Shown: piece by piece, positions 26,239 to 57,585 of the stretch
Numbering within the stretch: the first letter of the stretch is position 1
Layout of the letters: each line of letters starts with the position of its first letter
Source: Parabacteroides goldsteinii DSM 19448 = WAL 12034
GTDB taxonomy: Bacteria > Bacteroidota > Bacteroidia > Bacteroidales > Tannerellaceae
Direction of reading: 5' to 3'
DNA length: 64,000 nucleotides
Assembly: GCF_000969835.1 (NCBI RefSeq)
Contig: NZ_KQ033913.1
Span: forward strand, 870,859 to 934,858
Program-made: the position numbers and the translations under genes
Notes under the pieces: model-generated
The model's input: the letters and a program-made list of their open reading frames with translations, nothing else
Told to the model about the DNA's origin: nothing
Databases searched by the model: none

Positions 26239-26907
26239 CGATGAATTTTTTAAACAGAAGAAAGATATGGCAAAGAAAATACCTTACGGATTGACAGAGT
26301 ATGTGTTACTCATGACAGACATAAATATGCATCCGATGAAAAGGTAAAGAGCAGTACAGGTAACACCCGTCTGCGTCTCCTTGCCGCAGTTTACAGAGGC
26401 TGGCAACCGGTAGCAATGCAGGATTTGAGTGATGTTGATACATTCCTTATTCTAGTCCAAAGGTCAGAGAATTACAATCGTATTTAGAATGCATGATGTT
26501 TTTGTCGAAAATTACAACCAGTTGCTATAAACAAACACTCATATCTGATAAATCTTGAACCAAACCTTACCTCTGATTATATCAACGGAACAATCAATAT
26601 GAAATCGTTCAAAAAACCGTATAAGGACTACCGCTGTTTTATGGCTGGTATTCTATCGGCTTTTAGTGCCTGGATGTAATCTTTGAATCTAATAATAGAA
26701 TTAATAATCAATGGAAGAAATATTTAAATGTACCTATTCTCTTTGCCCTCCCGGCAAAGAGAATAGGTTAACGTATCCGGCTTGTTGCGTGTAAAAAATG
26801 ATGCCGGGTTCTTGTCGGATTGTATTGAATCCTGTATCGAGCTGTTGAAAGAAACGGTTCGTAATATATCGAAAAGAGATAATTAGTATTAAAATTTTAC
26901 ATAAATC
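26239..26907 (+). pseudogene. Gene-free stretch, possible decayed reading frames
   Basis: About 670 bp with no open frame. An ATG at 26268 opens a short frame starting MAKKIPYGLTEY that ends after about 25 codons; this start resembles the N-terminus of the AAA-ATPase_like family, so part of a second, degenerate copy is possible. Further fragments can be read around 26590-26680 (KSFKKPYKDYRCFMAGI) but with stops. A perfect hairpin lies at 26732-26768. Pseudogene status is a weak inference. Confidence 0.3.
26732..26768. repeat. Perfect 16-bp hairpin in intergenic DNA
   Basis: Arms 26732-26747 and 26753-26768 pair without mismatch around a 5-nt loop. There is no T tract on either side, so it is not a standard terminator. 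It lies between decayed DNA and the OmpA-like lipoprotein gene. Confidence 0.7.
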
Positions 26908-28096: not shown

Positions 28097-29065
28097 ATGA
28101 AAAAGAAAATATACTGCAACTTTGTTGATTTTTGGCTTGGTTTTAATTATAAAACTTATTTCTGGTATTTGTCGGATGAATACGATTTGCAGATAGATAA
28201 AGAGCATCCGGATTATTTATTCTATTCCTGTTTTGGAAATGAACATTTGTTTTATGAAGACTGTATCCGGATTTTTTGGAGTGACGAAAACATTATGCCC
28301 GATCTTAATATATGTGATTATGCCTTAAGTTTGAGTAATCTTCAATGTGATGACAGAACTTTTCGGAAATATAGTGGATTTCTGTACAGAAAGGATTTTC
28401 ACTTGGTTTTACCGCTTTTAAAAGAAGAAGCGTTGCTTAACCGTAAATTCTGCAATTTTGTTTATTCCAATAATATTTGTGCCGTCCCTTATCGGGAGTT
28501 GTTCTTTAAAACTTTATCCGGTTATAAACGGATTGATTCCGGTGGTGCTTTTTTGAATAATATGGGTAAAAAGGTAGGTGATAAGCAACAGTTCCTACAC
28601 GAATATAAATTCACTTTAGCGATTGAAAACTCAAGCATGCCGGGGTATGTGACTGAAAAAATCCTGGCACCGTTCATGGCACAGTCGTTACCGCTATATT
28701 GGGGCAGCCCCACTGTCAGTTCGGATTATAATCCGAACTCGTTTGTTAATCTGATGAATTATTCTTCCATGGAAGAAGCTGTTGAGGAGGTTATCCGCCT
28801 GGACAAAGACGATGCCGCTTATCTGGATAAAATGATGACACCCTTTTGGCCTTATGGCACTAATTTTCAAGAATTTCGTGATAGTGAGATAAAAAAAATA
28901 AAAGATTTTTTCAGTCATATTTTTGAGCAACCATTGGATAAAGCCGGTCGTCGGGTATGTTATGGCCGTAATAAAATTACTATTCAGAAACAAAGGAGAT
29001 ATTATGCTCCGACATTTCTTGAATTGTCAAAATCTATGACCAAAAAACTATTGAAAAAGAAATAA
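28097..29065 (+). CDS. GT10-family fucosyltransferase-like enzyme
   Basis: 322 aa. The conserved GT10 donor-site region is clear: FTLAIENSSMPGYVTEKI followed by YWGSP and NPNSF, as in alpha-1,3/1,4-fucosyltransferases of Helicobacter and animals. It transfers L-fucose (or possibly L-galactose, see the epimerase at 44421) from the GDP-sugar in alpha-1,3/4 linkage. The C-terminus is basic, as in membrane-associated bacterial GT10s. Two palindromes lie in the very codons of the conserved motif (28700-28739). A terminator-like element follows at 29125. Confidence 0.88.
   Translation: MKKKIYCNFVDFWLGFNYKTYFWYLSDEYDLQIDKEHPDYLFYSCFGNEHLFYEDCIRIFWSDENIMPDLNICDYALSLSNLQCDDRTFRKYSGFLYRKDFHLVLPLLKEEALLNRKFCNFVYSNNICAVPYRELFFKTLSGYKRIDSGGAFLNNMGKKVGDKQQFLHEYKFTLAIENSSMPGYVTEKILAPFMAQSLPLYWGSPTVSSDYNPNSFVNLMNYSSMEEAVEEVIRLDKDDAAYLDKMMTPFWPYGTNFQEFRDSEIKKIKDFFSHIFEQPLDKAGRRVCYGRNKITIQKQRRYYAPTFLELSKSMTKKLLKKK
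28700..28739. repeat. Paired palindromes inside the GT10 gene
   Basis: P1, 28700-28712: 13 bp, arms TGGGGC/GCCCCA around one base. P2, 28718-28739: 22-bp perfect palindrome without spacer. They encode the conserved YWGSP-to-NPNSF region, so they are formed by codon choice and not by an insertion. Confidence 0.8.
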
Positions 29066-29973: not shown

Positions 29974-30468
29974 ATGAAAAAACGTAAGGAAAACATGACA
30001 CCGGATTACCGGAAGTCGGGCTACCTGAAAGTGGGTAGAAGTGTGTTGCGCGCATTTTTTATGGGAGAACGCGATCTCCGTGAGTTGGCTAGTGTTTTAC
30101 TCTGTGTCGAAACCTTTGCCTATTTCAGCGAAGGACAGGTTTGGCTGAACGATCAGGTTTATTTCTGTCATCCGGGAGAGTGGATCACTTCGTACACGGA
30201 GATCGAGGAACTAACGGGTATCGATCGCCGCCAGGTCAAGAAGTATCTGGTGAAGCTCGAAAAACAACATTTCGTGTTTGTGTCGAATGTCGGTTTTTAC
30301 AAGCGGATTGCGTTGGTCAATTATGAACAATCCGTACAGGTGCAACATGGGGAACCGGTGGCACATAATCCGAACGGAACCGACCGGAATGATTCCGGCG
30401 GTAGCATCTGGGATGAAGCGATGAATTTTTATAATCCGGGTAATGATCAGAAAGGAGCGGTGAACTGA
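29974..30468 (+). CDS. Helix-turn-helix replication-type protein
   Basis: 164 aa. The central part (GEWITSYTEIEELTGIDRRQ, then a recognition-helix-like KKYLVKLEKQHFV) is a winged-helix pattern seen in phage and plasmid replication initiator/DnaD-like proteins. The C-terminal 30 residues are polar and Asn/Gly-rich. It overlaps the DnaB-like helicase start by 1 nt (TGATG), with AAGGAG upstream of that start, so it is made together with the helicase; a loader or initiator role is inferred. Confidence 0.65.
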   Translation: MKKRKENMTPDYRKSGYLKVGRSVLRAFFMGERDLRELASVLLCVETFAYFSEGQVWLNDQVYFCHPGEWITSYTEIEELTGIDRRQVKKYLVKLEKQHFVFVSNVGFYKRIALVNYEQSVQVQHGEPVAHNPNGTDRNDSGGSIWDEAMNFYNPGNDQKGAVN

Positions 30469-31853
30469 TGAACACACAAAAGAACATGCAGTCTCAGCCG
30501 AACACGAACCTTCGACTGGAACAAGCCGTGATAGCCGGCTTGTTGGTGAGTCCGGAAGCGATATTCGATGTGGCGGACCGGTTACAGCCGGATATGTTCA
30601 GCGACAACCGGACCGGTTTTGTCTACCGGGCGGTACTTTCGCTGATGGCCTCCGGAACAGCTGTCGATATGCTGACCGTAGAGAATGAGATGCGACGGCT
30701 GGATAACGGCTTGTATATACAGTTGAACGGATTATCGTTTCTGTCGGATATGTTGCTGGACGTACGTAGCGATGCCCATATCCGCATTCATGCCGACGAG
30801 CTGGTCCGTTGTTATACCTTGCGTCAGCTGGTGAATGAGTTGAAGAAAAAAGAGACGGAGGCGCAATTGCCCTCCGCCGATGTTACAGCGTTGTTGACGG
30901 GGATAGAGGATCTGGCAGGCTCTTTACGTGATGGCATGGCACATGTCTCGTCGATGGAGAATGCCGGTGCGGTAGCAGCCCGTGTGTTGGATAAATCGTA
31001 TCGTGAACAGGCTTTGCTTGAATCCGGGGAAATCAGCCGTCTCTTTTTCGGTTTGCACGACCTGGATACGATGACGGGAGGACTTTACAAAGAGGAATTG
31101 ACGGTTGTTGCCGGACGTCCCTCCATGGGGAAATCGGCGGTAGCTCTATGGATGGCACTCCATCAGGCGCGGCAAGGTACGGCAGTCGCCTATTTTAGTG
31201 TGGAGATGAGCAAAGAGCAAAATGTGATGCGACTGCTTTCGATGATCAGCGGAGTCAATGCGGATAGCCTGCGTTTTAAAGGTACTACAGCCTCTGACCG
31301 TGCCCGGTTGGAAGAAGCAAAGAAGGAACTCGAGCGGTTGCCGCTCACCTTGGAGTATTGCGGATCGGATACGATCGAAGATATGCGTGCCAAAGCCCAG
31401 TCTTTGCATAAGAAAGGCTGGTTGGGAGTTTTATATATCGATTATCTGAATCTGATCAATATTATTCTATCAAAAAATGATTTGCAGGAGACAACTGATC
31501 TGGCCTTGGGCAACATCGCCCGTAAGGCGAAACTGATGGCGGAAGAGATGAAAATCCCGGTGGTTTTGCTGGCCCAGTTAAACCGTGATGTCGATCGCCG
31601 CCAGGGGAGTCATTTCCCGATGCTGAGCGATTTGCGCAATTCCGGTGCGATAGAACAGGTGGCGGATGGGGTCATATTCGTTTATCGTGCCGAGAAGTAC
31701 AATATTTTTTATGATCCGAAGACAAAGGAAGATTTGCGGGGAGTGGGCATGTTGCTGGTTGCTAAAAACCGTAACGGGGCAACAGGAATAGCCAAATTCC
31801 GCTACAATCCGGCAATGACCTGCCTGACGGATTATGATCCGAGAGTGATATGA
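30468..31853 (+). CDS. Replicative DNA helicase, DnaB-like
   Basis: 461 aa, close to normal DnaB length. N-terminal domain LEQAVIAGLLVSPEAIFDV, linker helix, then the RecA-like domain with Walker A GRPSMGKSA and Walker B VLYIDYLNLI, and the H4-type RDVDRRQGSHFPMLSDLRNSG stretch. It would unwind DNA as a hexamer. Because it is sandwiched between glycan genes and next to primase, it is more likely a mobile-element or accessory copy than the chromosomal DnaB. Confidence 0.9.
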   Translation: MNTQKNMQSQPNTNLRLEQAVIAGLLVSPEAIFDVADRLQPDMFSDNRTGFVYRAVLSLMASGTAVDMLTVENEMRRLDNGLYIQLNGLSFLSDMLLDVRSDAHIRIHADELVRCYTLRQLVNELKKKETEAQLPSADVTALLTGIEDLAGSLRDGMAHVSSMENAGAVAARVLDKSYREQALLESGEISRLFFGLHDLDTMTGGLYKEELTVVAGRPSMGKSAVALWMALHQARQGTAVAYFSVEMSKEQNVMRLLSMISGVNADSLRFKGTTASDRARLEEAKKELERLPLTLEYCGSDTIEDMRAKAQSLHKKGWLGVLYIDYLNLINIILSKNDLQETTDLALGNIARKAKLMAEEMKIPVVLLAQLNRDVDRRQGSHFPMLSDLRNSGAIEQVADGVIFVYRAEKYNIFYDPKTKEDLRGVGMLLVAKNRNGATGIAKFRYNPAMTCLTDYDPRVI

Positions 31854-31897
31854 TATCATAGAAGAAAGAACTAAATAAATCTTTAAAGCAATGATAA

Positions 31898-32668
31898 ATG
31901 TTAATAAAAGTAAACGGGGGGGGGGGGGGTAACTCTCTAAACCAAAAGAAGTTATCAAAAAAAATCCAAAGAATTTATAGACAGGCTTTTGTCTATTTCT
32001 TATGGATCAGAAAATGGGGAAGAGCGCCCAGAAAGTTTATTATCGATACAGACCGGAAGCTGGTGTATTTGAATAATCCGAAAGTGGCTTGCTCTTCGAT
32101 AAAAAAATCAATGTTCGGAGACCAACCGGATATCCATGATTTTGTGAACCCGTACACAGAATGGGAGTTGAACCGGGAAACCGGTCGGTATTATAAATTC
32201 ACCTTTGTACGAAATCCTTACAAACGTCTGATTTCTTGTTTTGAAGATAAATGCATACAGCATCCGGATGATATTTGCTGGGACAGTTATTTGTTTTGCG
32301 GTTTGTTGCGTATACGTGATTTCAACCAATTTGTATACAGGATATTTTTACTTCCCGGTTGTTTGGCCGAGCCTCATTTTGCCGGACAGTACTTGTTGGT
32401 ATACGACAGGCGCGGCAAGTGTCAGGTTGATTATATCGGTAAGGTTGAACATATAAAAGAAGAATATGAGCCGATCCGTGAACGTTTTAATCTTCTTCCG
32501 TTACCTCACATGAACCGGGCTGCTTCACTGACCGGAAGATGCTGGATGGATTATTACACTCCGTTTACGGCATGGCTCGTCTACCGGAAATACAAGAAAG
32601 ACTTCATCGCTTTCGGATATGAAGATGAATACAGGAAGCTAAAGGAATATTTGAAAGGAAAGAAATGA
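31898..32668 (+). CDS. Sulfotransferase-family protein with phase-variable start
   Basis: 256 aa. The 5'-PAPS loop is seen in YLNNPKVACSSIKKSMF and the 3'-phosphate site in FTFVRNPYKRLIS, as in carbohydrate sulfotransferases of the Sulfotransfer_2 group. It would transfer sulfate from PAPS to a sugar. The start is in a 14-G tract: ATG 31898 reads through as five glycines into the enzyme, whereas ATG 31891 reads to a stop right after the tract. With 13 G the roles swap; with 12 or 15 both are out of frame. No later Met precedes the PAPS motif, so expression should depend on tract length. Confidence 0.85.
   Translation: MLIKVNGGGGGNSLNQKKLSKKIQRIYRQAFVYFLWIRKWGRAPRKFIIDTDRKLVYLNNPKVACSSIKKSMFGDQPDIHDFVNPYTEWELNRETGRYYKFTFVRNPYKRLISCFEDKCIQHPDDICWDSYLFCGLLRIRDFNQFVYRIFLLPGCLAEPHFAGQYLLVYDRRGKCQVDYIGKVEHIKEEYEPIRERFNLLPLPHMNRAASLTGRCWMDYYTPFTAWLVYRKYKKDFIAFGYEDEYRKLKEYLKGKK
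31916..31929 (+). repeat. Poly-G tract of 14 bases at a gene start
   Basis: Fourteen consecutive G, six codons into the sulfotransferase gene. By far the longest G or C homopolymer I saw in the window. Such tracts change length by slipped-strand mispairing in known phase-variable genes. Confidence 0.9.
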
Positions 32669-32708
32669 AGTTATAGAAAATAATCGGATAGCTCACATCT
32701 GATAAATT

Positions 32709-33923
32709 ATGAACCGGAAAGATCGAATAAAACAAGTGGCTCGTTTGGAGGAGGTCGTTGAACGCTACCTGCCTCTGAAGCGGGGTAGCAGTTCGGGGAA
32801 GACATTAACCGGGCTTTGCCCCTTCCATGCCGACCGTCATCCGTCGCTCTGTGTAAATATCCGTGAGCAGTATTATAAATGTTTTGCCTGCGGAGCGGGT
32901 GGAGACGTTTTCCGGTTTGTTCAGGAAATGGAAGGATGCGATTTCAGAAAAGCATTGGATATTCTTGCCGGATGGTACGGATTACCGGATACGGACGACA
33001 TACCTTTGGCATATACTCCGGCAAAAAAAATGTCTCCCATAAAGCCGGAGGCACATACGATTGTCAGTCAGTTGCATATCGACCATTTATTGCGTAGCCA
33101 CCGAATGATATCCGACCTGTTGGAAACCTATATTCCGGAAGCGGATATTCTCCGCGAAACATATAAAGCGTTTGAAATAGGAGTGGCTCCGGTTGCTTTG
33201 CCGGCTTCCTACGTTGATATGTGCGACCGTCTTATTTTCCCGATACGGAATGAACGGGGAGAGCTGGTGGCTTTTGCCGGACGGTACCGGGGAGAAACGA
33301 AAGGGACGGATATTCATAAATATGTTAATTCGCCGGACAGTCCGGTTTACCACAAAAGAGAGATTTTGTATGGCTTATATCAGGCCCGGGAAGCGATCCG
33401 CGAACATCATTTTGTTTTTGTCACCGAAGGGTATAAAGATGTGCTGGCCATGCATGCCGCGGGCTTCCGGAATACGGTAGCCTTGTGCGGAACGGCATTG
33501 ACGGACCAACAGATTACCTTACTCAGCCGGTACACCCGTTACGCGATTATTATGCTCGATGGCGATGAAGCCGGGCAAACGAACGGGATACGATCGGCAC
33601 GCTTATTGGTTGAAAAAGGCTTTTCGGTCGGCCGGATCGTTCTTGAGTCGGGACATGATCCGGATTCCCTGCTTTGTATGATGGGACGCGAAGATTTTAC
33701 CGGATATATAAAAAGATGGACCCGTATCAGCCGGTTGGAAGTTTACGAAACCGACCTGCTCCGGCAGATAAAACAATTGTTGGCAGACTTACACCTGGCT
33801 TTGACAGTAGCGGAACGGACAGACTTATTTGCCCGCATGCTCCCTTTGCATAAACGTTTGGAAAAAGTTACACGGCTACTGGCACATTCTCCGGTAATGA
33901 AAGCGGAATGGCTATTGGACTAG
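32709..33923 (+). CDS. DnaG-like primase
   Basis: 404 aa, shorter than housekeeping DnaG (about 600-650). N-terminal CHC2 zinc finger (CPFHADRHPSLCV then CFACGAGGD), then the TOPRIM catalytic core with FVTEGYKDVLAMHAAG and the acidic IMLDGDEAGQ. The C-terminal helicase-interaction domain seems reduced to a short helical tail. Makes RNA primers for DNA synthesis. Partner of the DnaB-like helicase at 30468, from which it is separated by a sulfotransferase gene, an odd arrangement suggesting insertion. Confidence 0.9.
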   Translation: MNRKDRIKQVARLEEVVERYLPLKRGSSSGKTLTGLCPFHADRHPSLCVNIREQYYKCFACGAGGDVFRFVQEMEGCDFRKALDILAGWYGLPDTDDIPLAYTPAKKMSPIKPEAHTIVSQLHIDHLLRSHRMISDLLETYIPEADILRETYKAFEIGVAPVALPASYVDMCDRLIFPIRNERGELVAFAGRYRGETKGTDIHKYVNSPDSPVYHKREILYGLYQAREAIREHHFVFVTEGYKDVLAMHAAGFRNTVALCGTALTDQQITLLSRYTRYAIIMLDGDEAGQTNGIRSARLLVEKGFSVGRIVLESGHDPDSLLCMMGREDFTGYIKRWTRISRLEVYETDLLRQIKQLLADLHLALTVAERTDLFARMLPLHKRLEKVTRLLAHSPVMKAEWLLD

Positions 33924-33926
33924 TTA

Positions 33927-34679
33927 TTGAAAATTAATGAAATAGGATATATGATTGTTGACCAGGAACGCAAAGTAATATACTTGCATAACCCGAAGTG
34001 CGGCGGAACATTTTTGAGGGATATTTATATCGAGAAGTATGGAAAAACAGATGCTACGAAATGGTGGAAGTTATTTTCCCATCAATACGGAGTTGATTTG
34101 GGGCATATAACGTATGATGATTTACCTCGTTTTATACCGGAATGGAAGGATTACAGGATTGTTACGATGATACGAAATCCTTATAATCGTTTTTATTCCG
34201 GAATAAAGGAACTGAAAAGCCAACTGGTTCCATTTGAGCTTTTTAGCATCAAATGCTCCGGGCATTTGATAGATGAAGAATGGTTGAGTTTGAACAAATT
34301 CCAAAAAACATATGAATTTTTGCGAAGTATCTGTCCCGGGACAGATACCCGTCTTCTGGTGAAGCGAGATTCAGCTTCACCAGAAGACACTTGTAAATAT
34401 ATTTCTTCATTGAAGCGTAGTAAACAGGATGTTCTTTTGCGAAACAAAAGAATTCCCTGGATAACTCCCCAAAGTTATTATATGGCAGAGAAAATAGAAC
34501 TATTATGGTATGAGTCGGAAGACGATTGGGAAAAATTGCTGGACATTTTCGGATTGTCTGCGTATAAAGAGCGTTTGAAAATAGCAAAAGACTATGCGAT
34601 ACCGGACGCTATTTGCAGGATGATTGAAAAGCTTTATCCGGAAGACCGGGAGTTGTTTTCGATGTATGGTGATAAATAA
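33927..34679 (+). CDS. Sulfotransferase-family protein with multiple palindromes
   Basis: 250 aa with TTG start at 33927 (3 nt after the primase stop); ATG 33951 is equally plausible. The PAPS loop is visible in VIYLHNPKCGGTFLRD and the 3'-phosphate site in IVTMIRNPYNRFYSG, fitting sulfotransferases of the Sulfotransfer_2/P-loop group. Acceptor unknown, presumably the capsule glycan. At least four hairpin-forming stretches lie in the coding sequence (34192-34207, 34248-34270, 34327-34348, 34351-34388). Confidence 0.8.
   Translation: MKINEIGYMIVDQERKVIYLHNPKCGGTFLRDIYIEKYGKTDATKWWKLFSHQYGVDLGHITYDDLPRFIPEWKDYRIVTMIRNPYNRFYSGIKELKSQLVPFELFSIKCSGHLIDEEWLSLNKFQKTYEFLRSICPGTDTRLLVKRDSASPEDTCKYISSLKRSKQDVLLRNKRIPWITPQSYYMAEKIELLWYESEDDWEKLLDIFGLSAYKERLKIAKDYAIPDAICRMIEKLYPEDRELFSMYGDK
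34192..34270. repeat. Palindromes within sulfotransferase gene, first group
   Basis: 34192-34207: 16-bp perfect palindrome (arms TTTATTCC/GGAATAAA), over the conserved RFYSG codons. 34248-34270: 9-bp perfect stem (ATCAAATGC/GCATTTGAT) with 5-nt loop; its left arm can also pair with CATTTGA upstream at about 34231-34237. Confidence 0.75.
34327..34388. repeat. Paired palindromes within sulfotransferase gene, second group
   Basis: 34327-34348: 22-bp perfect palindrome centred on CCCGGG. 34351-34365 with 34374-34388: 15-bp perfect stem, 8-nt loop. Only 2 nt separate them. Together they cover about 20 codons. Confidence 0.85.
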
Positions 34680-34700: not shown

Positions 34701-35834
34701 ATGAAAATACTACATGTAATTCCTTTCCTGAGTGCTGAAAGCGGAGGACCGGCTGTCAGTACGCTGTTACCGGTCAGGTATTTGAATGGAATGGGGAAGG
34801 ATATTGAAATTCTGACATTCCGCCCGTCTTCGAGGGAGACTGTGATATCTGATGAATCATTTATCCGTTATCTGCCGGAGTTGAAAGGCTGGCGGGGACG
34901 TGCAGGCTATTCTTCCCGTTTAAAGGAGGCGTTGGAGAAAAATGCCGGTACAGATGTTTATCATATACAGGGACTTTGGTTGTATTCGGTTTATCTGACT
35001 GCACACATGGCCTCTGAAAAGCGGAAACCCTATATAATCACTTTGCGCGGGATGCTTTATCCTGAAGCACTGAAACAATCAGCCGTTACAAAAAAACTGG
35101 CATTATCTTTTTTCCAGCGCCGGCAGTTACAGGAGGCTGCATGTGTGCAGGCCACTTGTGAGGAAGAGATGTACTATTACCGTGAGATGGGGTTTACAAA
35201 TCCGGTCGCTATTATTCCAAACCCGGTCGAATTAGAACCGGTAGCAGACGCTGTTTCGAAACCGGATGACATCAAACGTTTCGGATACCTCGGCCGTATT
35301 CATCCGCGAAAACATATAGAGCGTTTGATCGATTGCTGGCAACGGTTGGACGAACCGGGCGAATTAGTGATAATGGGAAACGGAGAACCTGGCTATGTGG
35401 CTTATTTAAAGGAGAAAGTTGAAAAAGCACTGTTGAAACAGGTCCGTTTTACCGGGTTAGTGACGGGGGATGAAAAAAAACGGCTGCTTGCTTCTCTTTC
35501 CTGCCTGGTCGTTCCCAGCGACTTTGAAAATTTCGGACGTATTATACCTGAGGCTTTGATGCAGGGAATTCCGGTTATTGCATCGACAGGTACCCCGTGG
35601 CGGGAACTTGAAACTTGCCGGTGTGGCTGGTGGGTGAAGAATGATTCGGAGACTTTGACTGATACAATGCGTAAAGTGTTGGCGTGTGATAAAGCCTTGC
35701 TGGATGAAATGGGCGAGCGGGGACGGCAACTGGTGTTAAAGAAATATACTGTAGAAAAAGTATCCGGACAACTGGAAGTAATGTACGACTGGGTAACCGG
35801 GAAAATAGATAAACCGGATTTTATATATTATTGA
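34701..35834 (+). CDS. Family 4 glycosyltransferase
   Basis: 377 aa, GT-B fold. N-terminal HVIPFLSAESGGPAVS is the usual acceptor-domain start; the C-terminal donor domain has FGYLGRIHPRKHIERLIDCW and the E-x7-E stretch SDFENFGRIIPEALMQGIPV. Retaining transferase of unknown sugar. Its stop overlaps the following sulfotransferase start by one base (TGATG), so both are coupled. Confidence 0.92.
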   Translation: MKILHVIPFLSAESGGPAVSTLLPVRYLNGMGKDIEILTFRPSSRETVISDESFIRYLPELKGWRGRAGYSSRLKEALEKNAGTDVYHIQGLWLYSVYLTAHMASEKRKPYIITLRGMLYPEALKQSAVTKKLALSFFQRRQLQEAACVQATCEEEMYYYREMGFTNPVAIIPNPVELEPVADAVSKPDDIKRFGYLGRIHPRKHIERLIDCWQRLDEPGELVIMGNGEPGYVAYLKEKVEKALLKQVRFTGLVTGDEKKRLLASLSCLVVPSDFENFGRIIPEALMQGIPVIASTGTPWRELETCRCGWWVKNDSETLTDTMRKVLACDKALLDEMGERGRQLVLKKYTVEKVSGQLEVMYDWVTGKIDKPDFIYY

Positions 35835-36718
35835 TGATGAAAATGCAATACACTTTAATCCCTTTTTCAAAGTATGTGTATGCTTTGGTGAGCAGGCAAA
35901 AAAACAAAAAAATAGATTTTTTTATTATCGGAGCACAGAAATGCGGAACGACTTCCCTGCATGATTATATGAATCAGCATCCTTTTTGTACGGGCGCTTT
36001 GAGAAAAGAAACATTGTTTTTTACGAAGAAATATCGGGGGACGGTGACTCTTGAAAGGTTAGTTGGCCATTTCTCTTTTAAGAAACTGATGAGGAACAGA
36101 GGTAAATGCCTGTTTTTCGAGTCTACTCCCGACAATGTTTATGAAGAGGCTGCTCCCGGCCGTATTTATAAATATAACCCGAAAGCAAAATTGATATTTC
36201 TGGTTCGCGAACCGGTGAGCCGCGCTATTTCCGAATATAATATGGCTTGTAAATACGCAATAGTTAAAAACTTGTGTGTCCGTGAAGACCCTGAACGCGA
36301 ATATTTTGATTACCTGAGGCAACCGGATAAGTATCCTTTCGAATGGTTCGTCAAGGAAGAATTTCGAAGAATGGAAGAAACCGGTTCCCGCCTGCCTTCG
36401 GCATTCCATTATCCTGATTTTATTCGTCATGGCCTGTATAGCGAGCAGCTGGAAAGGTATCTTCAGTATTTCAGTCCGGAGCAAATATTGATTCTGGAAA
36501 GTAAAAGTTTGAAAACGGATAAGAGAAATACGTTGTCGGCTATAGAAGATTTTTTGGAACTACCCCATCATGAATGGTCTGAAAAAGACTTGGTAAACTC
36601 CAATATTGGAGTTTACACTCGTCAGGTACCTGACGAGTGTAAACTATTCCTAAAAAAATATTTTGAACCGTGGAATGAAAAGTTTTTTGAGTTGATCGGG
36701 CGAAGAATGGATTGGTAA
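35834..36718 (+). CDS. Sulfotransferase-family protein with 36-bp palindrome
   Basis: 294 aa from ATG 35834. PAPS loop IIGAQKCGTTSLHDY and 3'-phosphate site FLVREPVSRAISEY are textbook for the Sulfotransfer_1/NDST-like family. Coupled to the preceding GT4 gene. Near the C-terminus, codons for about NSNIGVYTRQVPDECKL are built from two overlapping perfect palindromes (36593-36645); a 12-bp palindrome GGTTCGCGAACC also covers the conserved REP codons at 36202-36213. The protein otherwise looks intact. Confidence 0.88.
   Translation: MMKMQYTLIPFSKYVYALVSRQKNKKIDFFIIGAQKCGTTSLHDYMNQHPFCTGALRKETLFFTKKYRGTVTLERLVGHFSFKKLMRNRGKCLFFESTPDNVYEEAAPGRIYKYNPKAKLIFLVREPVSRAISEYNMACKYAIVKNLCVREDPEREYFDYLRQPDKYPFEWFVKEEFRRMEETGSRLPSAFHYPDFIRHGLYSEQLERYLQYFSPEQILILESKSLKTDKRNTLSAIEDFLELPHHEWSEKDLVNSNIGVYTRQVPDECKLFLKKYFEPWNEKFFELIGRRMDW
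36593..36645. repeat. Overlapping 24-bp and 36-bp perfect palindromes
   Basis: P1 is 36593-36616, 24 bp, no spacer, centre AATATT. P2 is 36610-36645, 36 bp, no spacer, centre GGTACC. They share AGTTTAC (36610-36616), so that word can pair either leftward or rightward: a built-in choice between two hairpins. Located inside the sulfotransferase reading frame. Confidence 0.92.
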
Positions 36719-36732
36719 AAAGTAGATATAAA

Positions 36733-37752
36733 ATGGATATAAAAATTTCAGTAATAATTCCCATATACAACAGGACTTATTGTTTGGCCCGTTGCCTGGA
36801 CTCTGTTTTGTTCCAGACATTTACAGATTGGGAATGTATTTTGATAGATGATGGTTCTACCGACGGGAGCTTATCGGTGTGCCGCCATTATGCAGAGACA
36901 GACTCCCGTTTCAGGGTATATAGTCAATCGAACAGTGGCGTTTCCGTTGCCCGCAACCGGGGGGTGGAATTGGCCCGGGGACAATACATTGCATTTATCG
37001 ACAGCGATGATTGGGTGGAAAGGACTTATTTGCAACTATTATATGATGCAGTCGGCGAAGATACAATGTCGTTTTGCGGACAGGATGAATTTGACAGCCA
37101 GGGAGTACGAAGCAAGGAGATGCCGGTAAAAAGTGACGAATCGTTTTTGTTGGATAATAGTGGAGCGGACTTGATTGCTTATTATTTTTTTGATTCGAAG
37201 CTCTTGTTTGGACCTGTGAATAAATTGTATGCACGAAAGATCATCGAAGACTATCACATTCGTTTCCCTGTCGGTATCGATTGGGGAGAGGATACGATTT
37301 TTAATTATACGTATTATAGTCATGTCAGTAAGCTGAAAGGTGTGCCTTTTACTTTATATCATGTTATGAAACAAAAGGTTTCATTGACGACAGAGGCGAA
37401 ATATGATTATTTCCTTTCTGATTCGAGACAAAAAAGATGGGATGGTTTCTCTGATTTTCTACAAAAGAAAGGTCTTAATCATCCCAGGCTGATGCTGGTT
37501 GCGGATAATTATTATATCTACCTCTTTTGTGAATCGACCGCCGGTTCGATTTTTGTACACGACCGATTGTCATGGATAGAACGTTATAAACGGATGAGAG
37601 GGTTAGTCATGAGTGCCGACCGGAGTAAATTCAAGAAGTATATCATTCGGCCGGGATCATTGGCCTATAAGTCTGTTGCTGTGTATTTCAGACTACCGGT
37701 TCTCCTCTTCTTGTTTTATGAAATCAAATATCTCTTTTTGAAAATCAAATAA
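36733..37752 (+). CDS. Family 2 glycosyltransferase
   Basis: 339 aa from ATG 36733 (a TTG at 36712 would overlap the previous gene by 7 bp). GT-A fold: ISVIIPIYNRTYCLARCLDS, IDDGSTDGS and the FIDSDDW D-x-D. Adds one sugar to the repeat unit; donor unknown. Same operon direction as its neighbours, 14 nt after the sulfotransferase. Confidence 0.92.
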   Translation: MDIKISVIIPIYNRTYCLARCLDSVLFQTFTDWECILIDDGSTDGSLSVCRHYAETDSRFRVYSQSNSGVSVARNRGVELARGQYIAFIDSDDWVERTYLQLLYDAVGEDTMSFCGQDEFDSQGVRSKEMPVKSDESFLLDNSGADLIAYYFFDSKLLFGPVNKLYARKIIEDYHIRFPVGIDWGEDTIFNYTYYSHVSKLKGVPFTLYHVMKQKVSLTTEAKYDYFLSDSRQKRWDGFSDFLQKKGLNHPRLMLVADNYYIYLFCESTAGSIFVHDRLSWIERYKRMRGLVMSADRSKFKKYIIRPGSLAYKSVAVYFRLPVLLFLFYEIKYLFLKIK

Positions 37753-46630: not shown

Positions 46631-47512
46631 ATGATTTATTCTGTTTTATCGGATAGATTGGGTAATATTTTATTTGAGATTGCAGCGGGTATTTCGTTGG
46701 CAAGGCGGTTGAATGTCCCTTTTAAAGCTTTTGTCGGGCAGGAGGACTATCGGTATGTTGAGTATGTTCTTCAGTATAAAAAATCAATCTTACGTAAGAT
46801 TGATTTTGCGGAAAGTCTTCCGCAAAATCAAAAAGTATATAATGAACCGTTTTTTCATTATCGGGCATTACCGGATGAGAAGGATTTGACAGTTTATGGA
46901 TATTTTCAGTCAGAGAAATATATTGATAAAGATTTTATCCGGGATTTATTTGCTATAGATGAGGAAACGAAATTGTATATAAGACATAAATATCAGGATA
47001 TACTGAATAAAAAACCGGTTTCTGTGCATGTCCGGAGAGGAGATTATATGCAATCGAAATTGTATTATGCTGTTTGTCCGGTCAGATATTATAAAAAAGC
47101 AATGCGATTATTTTCACCAACGACTGATTATTTGATTTTTAGCGATGACATAGACTGGTGTAAAAAACATTTTAAGGGGAAGCATTTTTATTTTTCTGAA
47201 AATGAATCACCATCAGTCGATTTGTATCTGCAAAGTTTTTGCAGGCATCATATCATCAGTAATTCCACGTTTGCCTGGTGGGGAGCCTGGTTGGATTCGT
47301 CTCCGGATAAACGGGTTATCTGTCCTGAATCATGGTTTGAAATACTTTATAGGACTAATGATATAAAAGATTTATATCCGGAGGAATGGAGCAAATTGCG
47401 GATTCGCAAGACTATTTTCGAATGGATAGATTTATATATGTATGCTATAAGTCATTATCGTTATGTGTATTATAAAAAAATAAAAAAACTTATAGCCAAG
47501 TTATTCATATGA
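46631..47512 (+). CDS. GT11-family alpha-1,2-fucosyltransferase-like enzyme
   Basis: 293 aa. N-terminal [15 protein letters not shown] is the GT11 glycine-loop, VHVRRGDY is the GDP-binding HxRRxD motif, and [12 protein letters not shown] is the conserved C-terminal motif. These enzymes put L-fucose alpha-1,2 on galactose, making an H-antigen-like end. With a GDP-L-galactose maker upstream, L-galactose is an alternative donor. Overlaps the GT6 gene by 4 nt. Two overlapping palindromes lie at 46780-46831. Confidence 0.9.
46780..46831. repeat. Overlapping palindromes inside the GT11 gene
   Basis: P1 is 46780-46807: 28-bp perfect palindrome without spacer, centre TACGTA. P2 is 46800-46813 with 46818-46831: 14-bp perfect stem, 4-nt loop. 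They share 46800-46807, so the shared word can pair left or right, exactly as in the pair at 36593-36645. Confidence 0.9.
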
Positions 47513-48333
47513 GAATCGGGATATTATATATCTGTACGGGACGTTACTCTATCTTTTGGAAGAAATTTTATCAGAGTACTGAAAAGTCTTTTATGCAGGG
47601 GCTCCCCTGCATCCGTGAATACTACGTGTTCACGGACAATCCATGCTTATATGGAGAAAAAAAGAATAAGCGTATCCATCGTATTTATCAGGAAAATCTA
47701 GGATGGCCGGATAATACGTTGATGCGTTTCAGTATGTTTTTAAAAATAAAGGAACGGCTGGAAAAGGAAACGGATTATCTTTATTTTTTCAATGCCAATA
47801 TGGTTATACGGGAGAAGATCGGTAAAGAGTTTTTACCGGAGGAAAGTTCCAACGGATTGGTCGGGCTAATACATTCTGGGGGTTATGATCGTGAGGTGAA
47901 CGAATTCACCTATGACCGGAATGAAAAATCGACAGCTTATATTCCTTACGGAGAAGGCCGTTATTATTATGCCGGTGGGTTAAACGGCGGTAGGACTCCT
48001 GCCTTTTTGAAGATGGCGGAGACTCTCAGGGATAATACGGAAGAAGACAAAAGAAACGGAGTGATGGCTCTTTGGCATGATGAATCGCATATCAACCGTT
48101 ATTTTTTAGATCATCCGCCTTATTCATTAACTCCGGCTTACTGTTATCCGGAGGGCTGGAACATGCCTTTCCCGCAGATTATACTTTTATTGGATAAAAG
48201 CTTTATCTGTGGCGGTCATAAATATTTACGCGGAGGTAAAAGGAATTTCCATGATTACACGAGTTATTTGAAGCGCAGTTTGGTGAGGTTTGCCAGAAAG
48301 GTTATAGGGGTATTGCGTGGTTTTGGTCTTTAG
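47509..48333 (+). CDS. GT6-family (ABO-type) glycosyltransferase
   Basis: 274 aa. The family pattern is clear: [22 protein letters not shown] (the bacterial N-x-N in place of the vertebrate D-x-D), YYAGGLNGG and [11 protein letters not shown]. Bacterial GT6 such as the Bacteroides ovatus enzyme transfers GalNAc or Gal alpha-1,3 to a 2-O-fucosylated galactose. The gene overlaps the GT11 gene by 4 nt, so the H-type acceptor and its capping enzyme are encoded as a pair. Palindromes lie at 47593-47636 and a small one at 47894-47911. Confidence 0.9.
47593..47636. repeat. Abutting palindromes inside the GT6 gene
   Basis: P1 is 47593-47612: 9-bp stem (ATGCAGGGG/CCCCTGCAT), 2-nt loop. P2 is 47612-47636: 11-bp stem with one T-G pair, 3-nt loop. 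They touch at 47612. They cover codons for the conserved start of the GT6 domain up to VFTD. Confidence 0.8.
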
Positions 48334-57489: not shown

Positions 57490-57585
57490 AGATAACCTAA
57501 ACAATCTTTTTGCCTTAAAGACTAATACCTATTAAAAACCTATAAAGAGGGCCTTTGAGAAAAGGCCCTCTTTATGATTTTTAAC
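57490..57585 (+). ncRNA. Candidate small RNA of about 95 nt
   Basis: Bounded by the promoter at 57453-57484 and a 15-bp perfect terminator hairpin (57542-57556 with 57561-57575). No ATG-started frame of use lies inside. It could be a trans-acting small RNA, or antisense to the 3' end of the neighbouring minus-strand mRNA. No Rfam family is recognised. Confidence 0.45.
57542..57585. terminator. Perfect hairpin terminator
   Basis: 15-bp stem, loop GAGA, with T5 after it on the plus strand (57581-57585 region) and a T5 stretch beyond it on the minus strand. It can end both the candidate small RNA and the minus-strand CarboxypepD_reg gene. Confidence 0.8.

Follow-up and report, generated by a model that had tools for sequence, protein, structure and literature searches.

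Tandem palindromes with jointly changing arms inside capsule-locus genes of Parabacteroides

The DNA analysed here, a 64,000-nucleotide stretch of the Parabacteroides goldsteinii DSM 19448 genome (hereafter the window), contains a capsule/exopolysaccharide locus with genes for glycosyltransferases, Poly_export (Wza-like) and Wzz-type proteins, a DnaB-type helicase, a DnaG-type primase and an HU-like protein. Positions 28097-48333 hold sulfotransferases of two families, GT10 and GT11 fucosyltransferases, and GT6 and GT25 genes; related loci also contain a sialic acid esterase gene and a gene that we take to resemble neuA. This enzyme set suggests a sulfated, fucosylated, host-like capsule glycan. 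The helicase and primase genes lie within the capsule locus at 29974-33923, and their homologues recur in related loci (L052, L054, L058 and L065), in some of which decorating genes are found between or beside them. Intergenic inverted repeats at 175-208, 26732-26768 and 57542-57575, with arms of 15-16 bp and loops of 4-5 bases, are perhaps terminators.

One of the sulfotransferase genes, ST1, contains two perfect palindromes (P1 and P2) that overlap by 7 bp, so that the sequence reads a-b-b'-a'-c-c'-a with the word GTAAACT at both outer ends (Table 1). An earlier note on this DNA had described a 36-bp and a 24-bp palindrome sharing a 7-bp word inside an otherwise intact sulfotransferase, and both the symmetry and the intact open frame were confirmed. 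The nearest named protein cluster among the matches listed is P0010, 97% identical to ST1 and named Parabacteroides sp. AF17-3. The open frame and the conserved protein together indicate that the site is translated. The note had judged the longer palindrome far beyond chance, which agrees with an expectation of about 1e-6 per window for loopless 18-bp arms (64000/4^18). Synonymous recoding of ST1 (n = 1000) gave a longest arm of 12 bp, reached in 11 recodings with loops of up to 8 bases and in 9 without a loop, and never an 18-bp arm. P1 alone is thus reachable by codon choice about once in 100, and P2 is not a product of codon chance. The exact 20-bp core had no match in viral contigs, and the region 36500-36760 had none in the plasmid collection.

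Table 1. Palindromes, hairpins and their carrier genes in the window.
Feature	Position	Strand	Basis
ST1 sulfotransferase gene, carrier of the reported palindromes	35831..36718	+	Open frame, 295 aa; PF00685, E 8.7e-15
P1, 5' palindrome, 24 bp, 12-bp arms, no loop	36593..36616	.	Exact symmetry in sequence
P2, 3' palindrome, 36 bp, 18-bp arms, no loop	36610..36645	.	Exact symmetry in sequence
Word a, copy 1 (GTAAACT)	36593..36599	+	Window sequence
Word a', inverted copy (AGTTTAC), common to P1 and P2	36610..36616	-	Window sequence
Word a, copy 3 (GTAAACT)	36639..36645	+	Window sequence
ST2, second sulfotransferase gene with tandem pair	33927..34679	+	PF03567, 20 bits vs cut-off 22
ST2 5' palindrome, 11-bp arms, no loop	34327..34348	.	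Repeat scan, relatives compared
ST2 3' hairpin, 15-bp arms, 8-base loop	34351..34388	.	Repeat scan; proteins of three relatives imply a loop exactly inverse to this one
GT11 fucosyltransferase gene with tandem pair	46631..47512	+	PF01531
GT11 5' palindrome, 14-bp arms, no loop	46780..46807	.	Repeat scan, relatives compared
GT11 3' hairpin, 14-bp arms, 4-base loop	46800..46831	.	8 bp in common with GT11 5' palindrome
Single palindrome, 11-bp arms	28718..28739	.	Inside GT10 fucosyltransferase gene 28097-29065
Weaker hairpin, 9-bp arms, loop 2	47593..47612	.	GT6 gene 47509-48333; P. gordonii homologue has tandem pair at same site

The window holds two further tandem pairs beyond the one first reported, in ST2 (34327-34388) and in GT11 (46780-46831), together with a single palindrome in the GT10 gene and a weaker hairpin in the GT6 gene.

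ST1 homologues were sought in 38 genomes of the genus, which yielded seven genes in four genomes: G001 (P. gordonii, where records L001 and L002 are the same gene), G038 (putatively P. timonensis), G003 (putatively P. bouchesdurhonensis) and G013. When the ST1 alignment was used for a family-wide search of 123 genomes, no genome beyond these four matched. The earlier note had asked for such a comparison, and it revealed palindromes at the ST1 site in five other homologous genes, built from other bases, at 61-72% DNA identity. Projected codon by codon onto the P2 site, the gene of P. gordonii MS-1 = DSM 23371 forms 18/18 pairs around a different core, the three G038 genes form 17, 17 and 15 of 18, and the G013 gene forms 15/18. 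The two more distant G003 genes form 5/18 and 4/18 pairs, which is no symmetry.

Protein cluster P0011, with 8 contigs of up to 6.4 kb, reads ST1 as far as P2 and then back along the other strand. A fold exactly at P2 is what an error of the assembler or of amplification at a palindrome would give, and P0011 is either an inverted fold-back or an artefact that the palindrome provoked during assembly. In the ten clusters P0001-P0010 the reading continues normally across the site, with one change in P0004, and divergent genomes carry their own palindromes there. The 18-bp-arm palindrome with another core in P. gordonii MS-1 = DSM 23371 refutes the note's own reservation about assembly error, and we regard a sequencing or assembly artefact as scarcely credible for the palindrome itself. 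Neither chance nor assembly error accounts for P1 and P2.

The two arms of P2 change together. Across six sequences, 94.8% of 96 P2 cells were paired, compared with 31-43% when one side was slid; 5/16 pairs had changed on both sides, a number that 1/500 shuffles matched, and the covariation score was 0.338 against 0.118 in shuffled data, with 0/500 shuffles as high. P1 is nearly invariant in the same six sequences (95.0% of 60 cells paired), and its covariation was not above that of shuffles (86/500 as high). The pattern extends beyond ST1. In 31 sequence-by-stem rows from ST1, ST2, GT11 and GT10, 353/384 cells were Watson-Crick pairs and 69 had changed on both sides, while sliding the 3' side left 83-116/384 cells paired; this count omits 12 gapped rows and one duplicate, and in loopless palindromes it disregards the central four bases. 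The 31 broken cells comprised 7 G-U, 4 A-C and 20 other combinations. We thus observe perfect or near-perfect inverted repeats in translated genes whose arms have been homogenised with few intermediates (69 two-sided against 31 broken cells). Many relatives of ST2 and GT11 retain the stems with other bases. In GT11 the hairpins also come apart: the relatives L015 and L018 keep the 5' stem and L017 keeps the 3' stem, the other hairpin having decayed or being absent.

These comparisons bear on two further explanations. The first holds that the symmetry follows from constraint on the protein: the peptide VNSNIGVY is conserved and would by accident be reverse-complement symmetric, with codon choice supplying the remainder. 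The recoding result for loopless P1 and the conservation of much of the P1 peptide agree with it; for P2 it is contradicted by the recodings, the residues of P2 vary in coupled pairs between relatives, and the same layout occurs in unrelated proteins, which together leave it very improbable. The second holds that the palindromes are the remnant of an inserted palindromic element of the MITE, REP or Rickettsia type. Such elements are reported inside genes of other bacteria, and the GT11 relative L017 is 18 bases shorter at the 5' palindrome, with the frame preserved. Against this, ST1 carriers and non-carriers align without a gap at the site, and the modules of different genes have no common sequence by eye, so that an insertion origin appears more improbable still.

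The encoded peptides were examined for the number of stem pairs they allow. For each distinct peptide, the maximum number of pairs over any codon choice was compared with that for shuffled right halves. The 3' stems exceeded the shuffled values in all three families, with 0/1000 shuffles reaching the observed mean: 16.87 against 15.34 (sd 0.22) for 30 distinct ST1 peptides, 13.26 against 11.54 (sd 0.17) for 39 ST2 peptides and 11.63 against 10.83 (sd 0.14) for 43 GT11 peptides. The peptides came from 40 of the 120 ST1 proteins listed (P0010-P0049), 72/79 ST2 proteins and the first 50 of the 120 GT11 proteins listed; gapped sequences were dropped (for ST2, 28 at the 5' stem and 29 at the 3' stem of 73; for GT11, 1/51). 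An earlier version of the ST1 test with 29 peptides gave 0/2000. The 5' stems were weaker, the observed value being reached in 11 (ST1), 8 (ST2) and 4 (GT11) of 1000 shuffles. Shuffles in these protein-level tests ignore relatedness, while the slid controls of the stem-cell count and of the P2 test respect it. At least 16/18 P2 pairs are allowed by 27/30 distinct ST1 peptides.

Two proteins or protein groups further suggest that hairpin loops have been inverted. P0037 is identical to a G038 protein at 293/297 residues, and all four differences fall within P2. Read back from the protein, they may represent a complementary pair of changes (ATT to AAT in one arm, GAA to GAT in the other) together with a loop change from ATTC to GAAT; only 2/256 random loops read E and S when inverted. 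In ST2, the 8-base loop of the window encodes R-D-S and its inverse would encode L-N-L, the residues of P0122, P0125 and P0126 (3/17 relatives compared; the comparison covered 17 of the 39 distinct peptides, each of them starting with L). L-N-L arises on inversion from 48/65,536 random loops. Both cases, as read back from protein sequence, are consistent with template switching. A similar loop inversion between the neuA genes of L059 and L061 is only suggestive.

To determine how frequent such structures are, we took stretches no longer than 20 kb. A first set of 20 surrounded capsule genes in the four genomes, and 60 control stretches came from elsewhere on a single P. gordonii contig. A third set of 20 surrounded GT11 or PF00685 genes in other Bacteroidales, and a fourth set of 20 included 17 from other Parabacteroides loci. 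One genome in the third set, G340, is apparently Parabacteroides sp. FAFU027, so this set is not free of the genus. A tandem pair was defined by arms of at least 9 bp and loops of at most 9 bases, and a long repeat as a perfect repeat in an open frame with arms of at least 11 bp and loops of at most 8 bases. Capsule coding DNA (410 kb) contained 24 tandem pairs, and the other coding DNA from P. gordonii (1,064 kb) contained 1. There were 0 in the coding parts of the stretches that surround GT11 or PF00685 genes in the other Bacteroidales genomes (349 kb) and 3 in the 17 stretches from other Parabacteroides (235 kb). Since the choice of capsule stretches relied on homology to ST1, ST2, GT11 or GT10, their densities are not those of a random sample. 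Genes for CgtA, GT6, MBOAT, SASA and hexapeptide proteins were not among the queries. Outside open frames, the capsule set (45 kb) and the control (123 kb) each had a single pair. The two members of a pair overlapped by 1-8 bp in 19/24 capsule pairs and were separated by 0-4 bases in the other 5/24. The absence of pairs from the 349 kb led us to reject the idea that the tandem layout is general to these enzyme families across Bacteroidales.

There were 46 long repeats in the capsule set plus window and 1 in the first 20 control stretches; 33/46 had a tandem partner. Per 100 kb of coding DNA, they numbered 9.1-15.0 in the capsule sets plus window, 0.3, 0.3 and 2.2 in three control parts and 2.3 in other Bacteroidales, where about 0.16 would be expected by chance. 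Single repeats occur elsewhere too (8 in one 357-kb P. gordonii coding part, where chance predicts about 0.6, 8 in 349 kb of other Bacteroidales and 8 in the 17 other Parabacteroides stretches), and the excess of single repeats extends beyond capsule stretches. Among earlier, shorter loci, the count was 5 in 100 kb for 30 loci around GT11 genes, 2 of them P. gordonii's own, and 1 in 89 kb for 30 loci around PF00685 genes.

The carrier genes were surveyed in 334 frames of at least 150 aa, grouped into 143 clusters, whose names derive from the Pfam hits of single or few members or from similarity to such members. Tandem pairs were present in ST1 (7/8), ST2 (6/8), GT11 (3/5), CgtA-like (2/6), GT10 (1/5), GT6 (1/4), hexapeptide transferase (1/11), MBOAT (1/1) and SASA esterase (1/1) genes, and a CgtA-like paralogue with a shorter frame carries the 24th capsule pair. 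In the same loci no pair was present in GT2 (0/20), GT25 (0/12), Wzz/Wzc-type (0/11), GT4 (0/9) or Wza-like (0/9) genes. The pairs thus fall in nine gene clusters, mostly of presumed glycan-decorating enzymes, a role that we infer from their families. This class is a tendency: a strict restriction to decorating enzymes was weakened by the other Parabacteroides loci, where 2/3 pairs lie in GT2 genes and the third in a GT10 gene. The sole non-capsule pair of P. gordonii in the 1,064 kb lies in an FrhB/FdhB-like gene (L187:1816-2946), in which an 8-bp word occurs three times. GT10 genes of two other Parabacteroides genomes (L218:10033-11028 and L219:9948-10943) carry hairpins with 18- and 16-bp arms.

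Arm length within the pairs is polar with respect to the gene: the longer arms belong to the 3' hairpin in 23/28 pairs, the arms are equal in 3, and those of the 3' hairpin are shorter in 2, although the pairs are not independent of one another. The coding strand was G-rich around 21/21 genes checked. Polarity could be set by the direction of replication, with which a G-rich coding strand fits, though the two are confounded.

The main alternative to a mutational origin is a selected structural element: tandem hairpins in mRNA, or in single-stranded or cruciform DNA, that are recognised by shape and whose compensatory changes are kept by selection. Such an element might control decorating genes at the RNA level, or be bound by a DNA protein that recognises structure, for instance the HU-like protein of the locus. 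The ties to certain families (ST1, ST2 and GT11 foremost), the recurrence of one tandem layout in nine unrelated clusters and in the FrhB-like gene, and the polarity are in its favour. So are the G003 homologues of ST1 and ST2, which have pairs at other residues (that of ST1 weak, with arms of 9 and 10 bp), and a strong predicted RNA fold (z -5.24). Other observations weigh against it. RNA helices under selection are expected to show an excess of G-U among non-Watson-Crick pairs, and the 7/31 broken cells that are G-U represent no clear excess. One hairpin of a pair can decay or vanish. Inspected by eye, the arms and cores are not the same from one family or homologue to another, and we saw no sequence common to the modules that a recombinase or nuclease could recognise. 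The window has 0 Rfam matches at the gathering score. No T run directly follows 36645 or the other window hairpins, unlike at an intrinsic terminator. The earlier note had envisaged two mutually exclusive hairpins; this holds as geometry, while the predicted RNA fold forms both side by side. An RNA switch, which it listed as a candidate, is opposed in its obligate form by the GT11 genes L015, L017 and L018, which keep one hairpin only. Family restriction, polarity and the retention in ST1 therefore leave room for a selected element, which we consider possible, if on balance unlikely.

We favour, as the probable explanation, long-lived and self-correcting coding palindromes that persist because replication copies one arm onto the other. 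The new strand would fold back at the hairpin, copy one arm onto the other and return, so that a mutation in one arm would be transferred to the other and the loop would occasionally be inverted. Once born, a palindrome could persist while both arms drift jointly, and the enzyme would gain changes that alter one residue or several adjacent ones in a coordinated way. A first hairpin may seed an adjacent second one, giving the tandem a-b-b'-a'-c-c'-a layout, and accumulation in capsule-glycan decorating enzymes would probably reflect that block changes are tolerated or profitable there. Template-switch mutation, one of the candidates in the earlier note, is preferred because the arms change together, broken pairs are few, G-U is not clearly in excess and two loops look inverted. 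The decay or disappearance of one GT11 hairpin while the other stays fits birth and death of individual hairpins. Scarce half-changed pairs, indifference to sequence, independent hairpin loss in GT11 and loop flips all fit template switching.

Several observations run counter to it. A neutral process should also hit other fast-evolving genes, yet GT2, GT25 and GT4 genes of the same loci are without pairs, and the 1,064 kb of P. gordonii coding DNA outside the capsule set contains a single one. P1 has no covariation above shuffles, and the longer 3' arms are not explained by template switching unless replication direction sets the polarity. The retention in ST1 (27/30 peptides) would also be expected under selection. 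More speculatively, the tandem palindromes might be an evolved device for self-templated diversification, a foldback hotspot within capsule-decorating genes that rewrites a short peptide block through arm copying and loop inversion, with neither reverse transcriptase nor donor copy, and is kept by selection for this or for a coupled hairpin function; we hold this to be doubtful.

The underlying mechanism is already known from yeast genes and RNA genes, and has been proposed for hairworm mitochondria. In Saccharomyces cerevisiae genes, template switching is reported to homogenise arms and invert spacers, changing up to 5 neighbouring amino acids at once (PMC8604942). The joint arm correction and spacer inversion in coding inverted repeats resemble what we describe, but the yeast events are differences between strains, whereas the palindromes here are long-lived, lie at fixed places in diverged bacterial homologues, are often tandem and are bound to gene families. 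Mitochondrial genes of Nematomorpha contain coding palindromes with all-or-none arm identity, for which repeat conversion has been proposed (PMC6649704). They too are perfect inverted repeats inside working genes; they reach up to 284 bp and are mitochondrial, while those described here are bacterial, about 18-42 bp long and often paired, sharing up to 8 bp. The palindromic elements of Rickettsia, discussed in the same source, are likewise palindromic DNA inside bacterial open frames, but they are described there as selfish and as losing repeat identity with time, in contrast to the lack of an insertion in ST1, of a common repeat by eye, and the identity that is kept here. Template switching also creates and maintains RNA hairpins, in which one-step compensatory changes keep the stem perfect (PMC8794818); that system concerns RNA genes, whereas the stems here lie in protein-coding DNA with no assigned RNA role. 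Our literature search, outside which most subscription papers lay, turned up no description of coding palindromes that overlap in tandem within capsule genes of bacteria.

If the favoured explanation is correct, template switching would be a standing force that acts over long periods on short peptide blocks in families of bacterial surface-glycan enzymes and not only a rare error. The genes would allow coding palindromes to be studied in a bacterial model, where paired residues and loop flips give a clear read-out. They would also call for caution in covariation analysis, where paired changes could arise without an RNA function and coupled residues without a protein contact. An element that is recognised by its shape and recurs in many unrelated genes, as the alternative has it, would be of at least equal interest. 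For these bacteria, self-correcting palindromes would perhaps provide a new route to variation in capsule chemistry.
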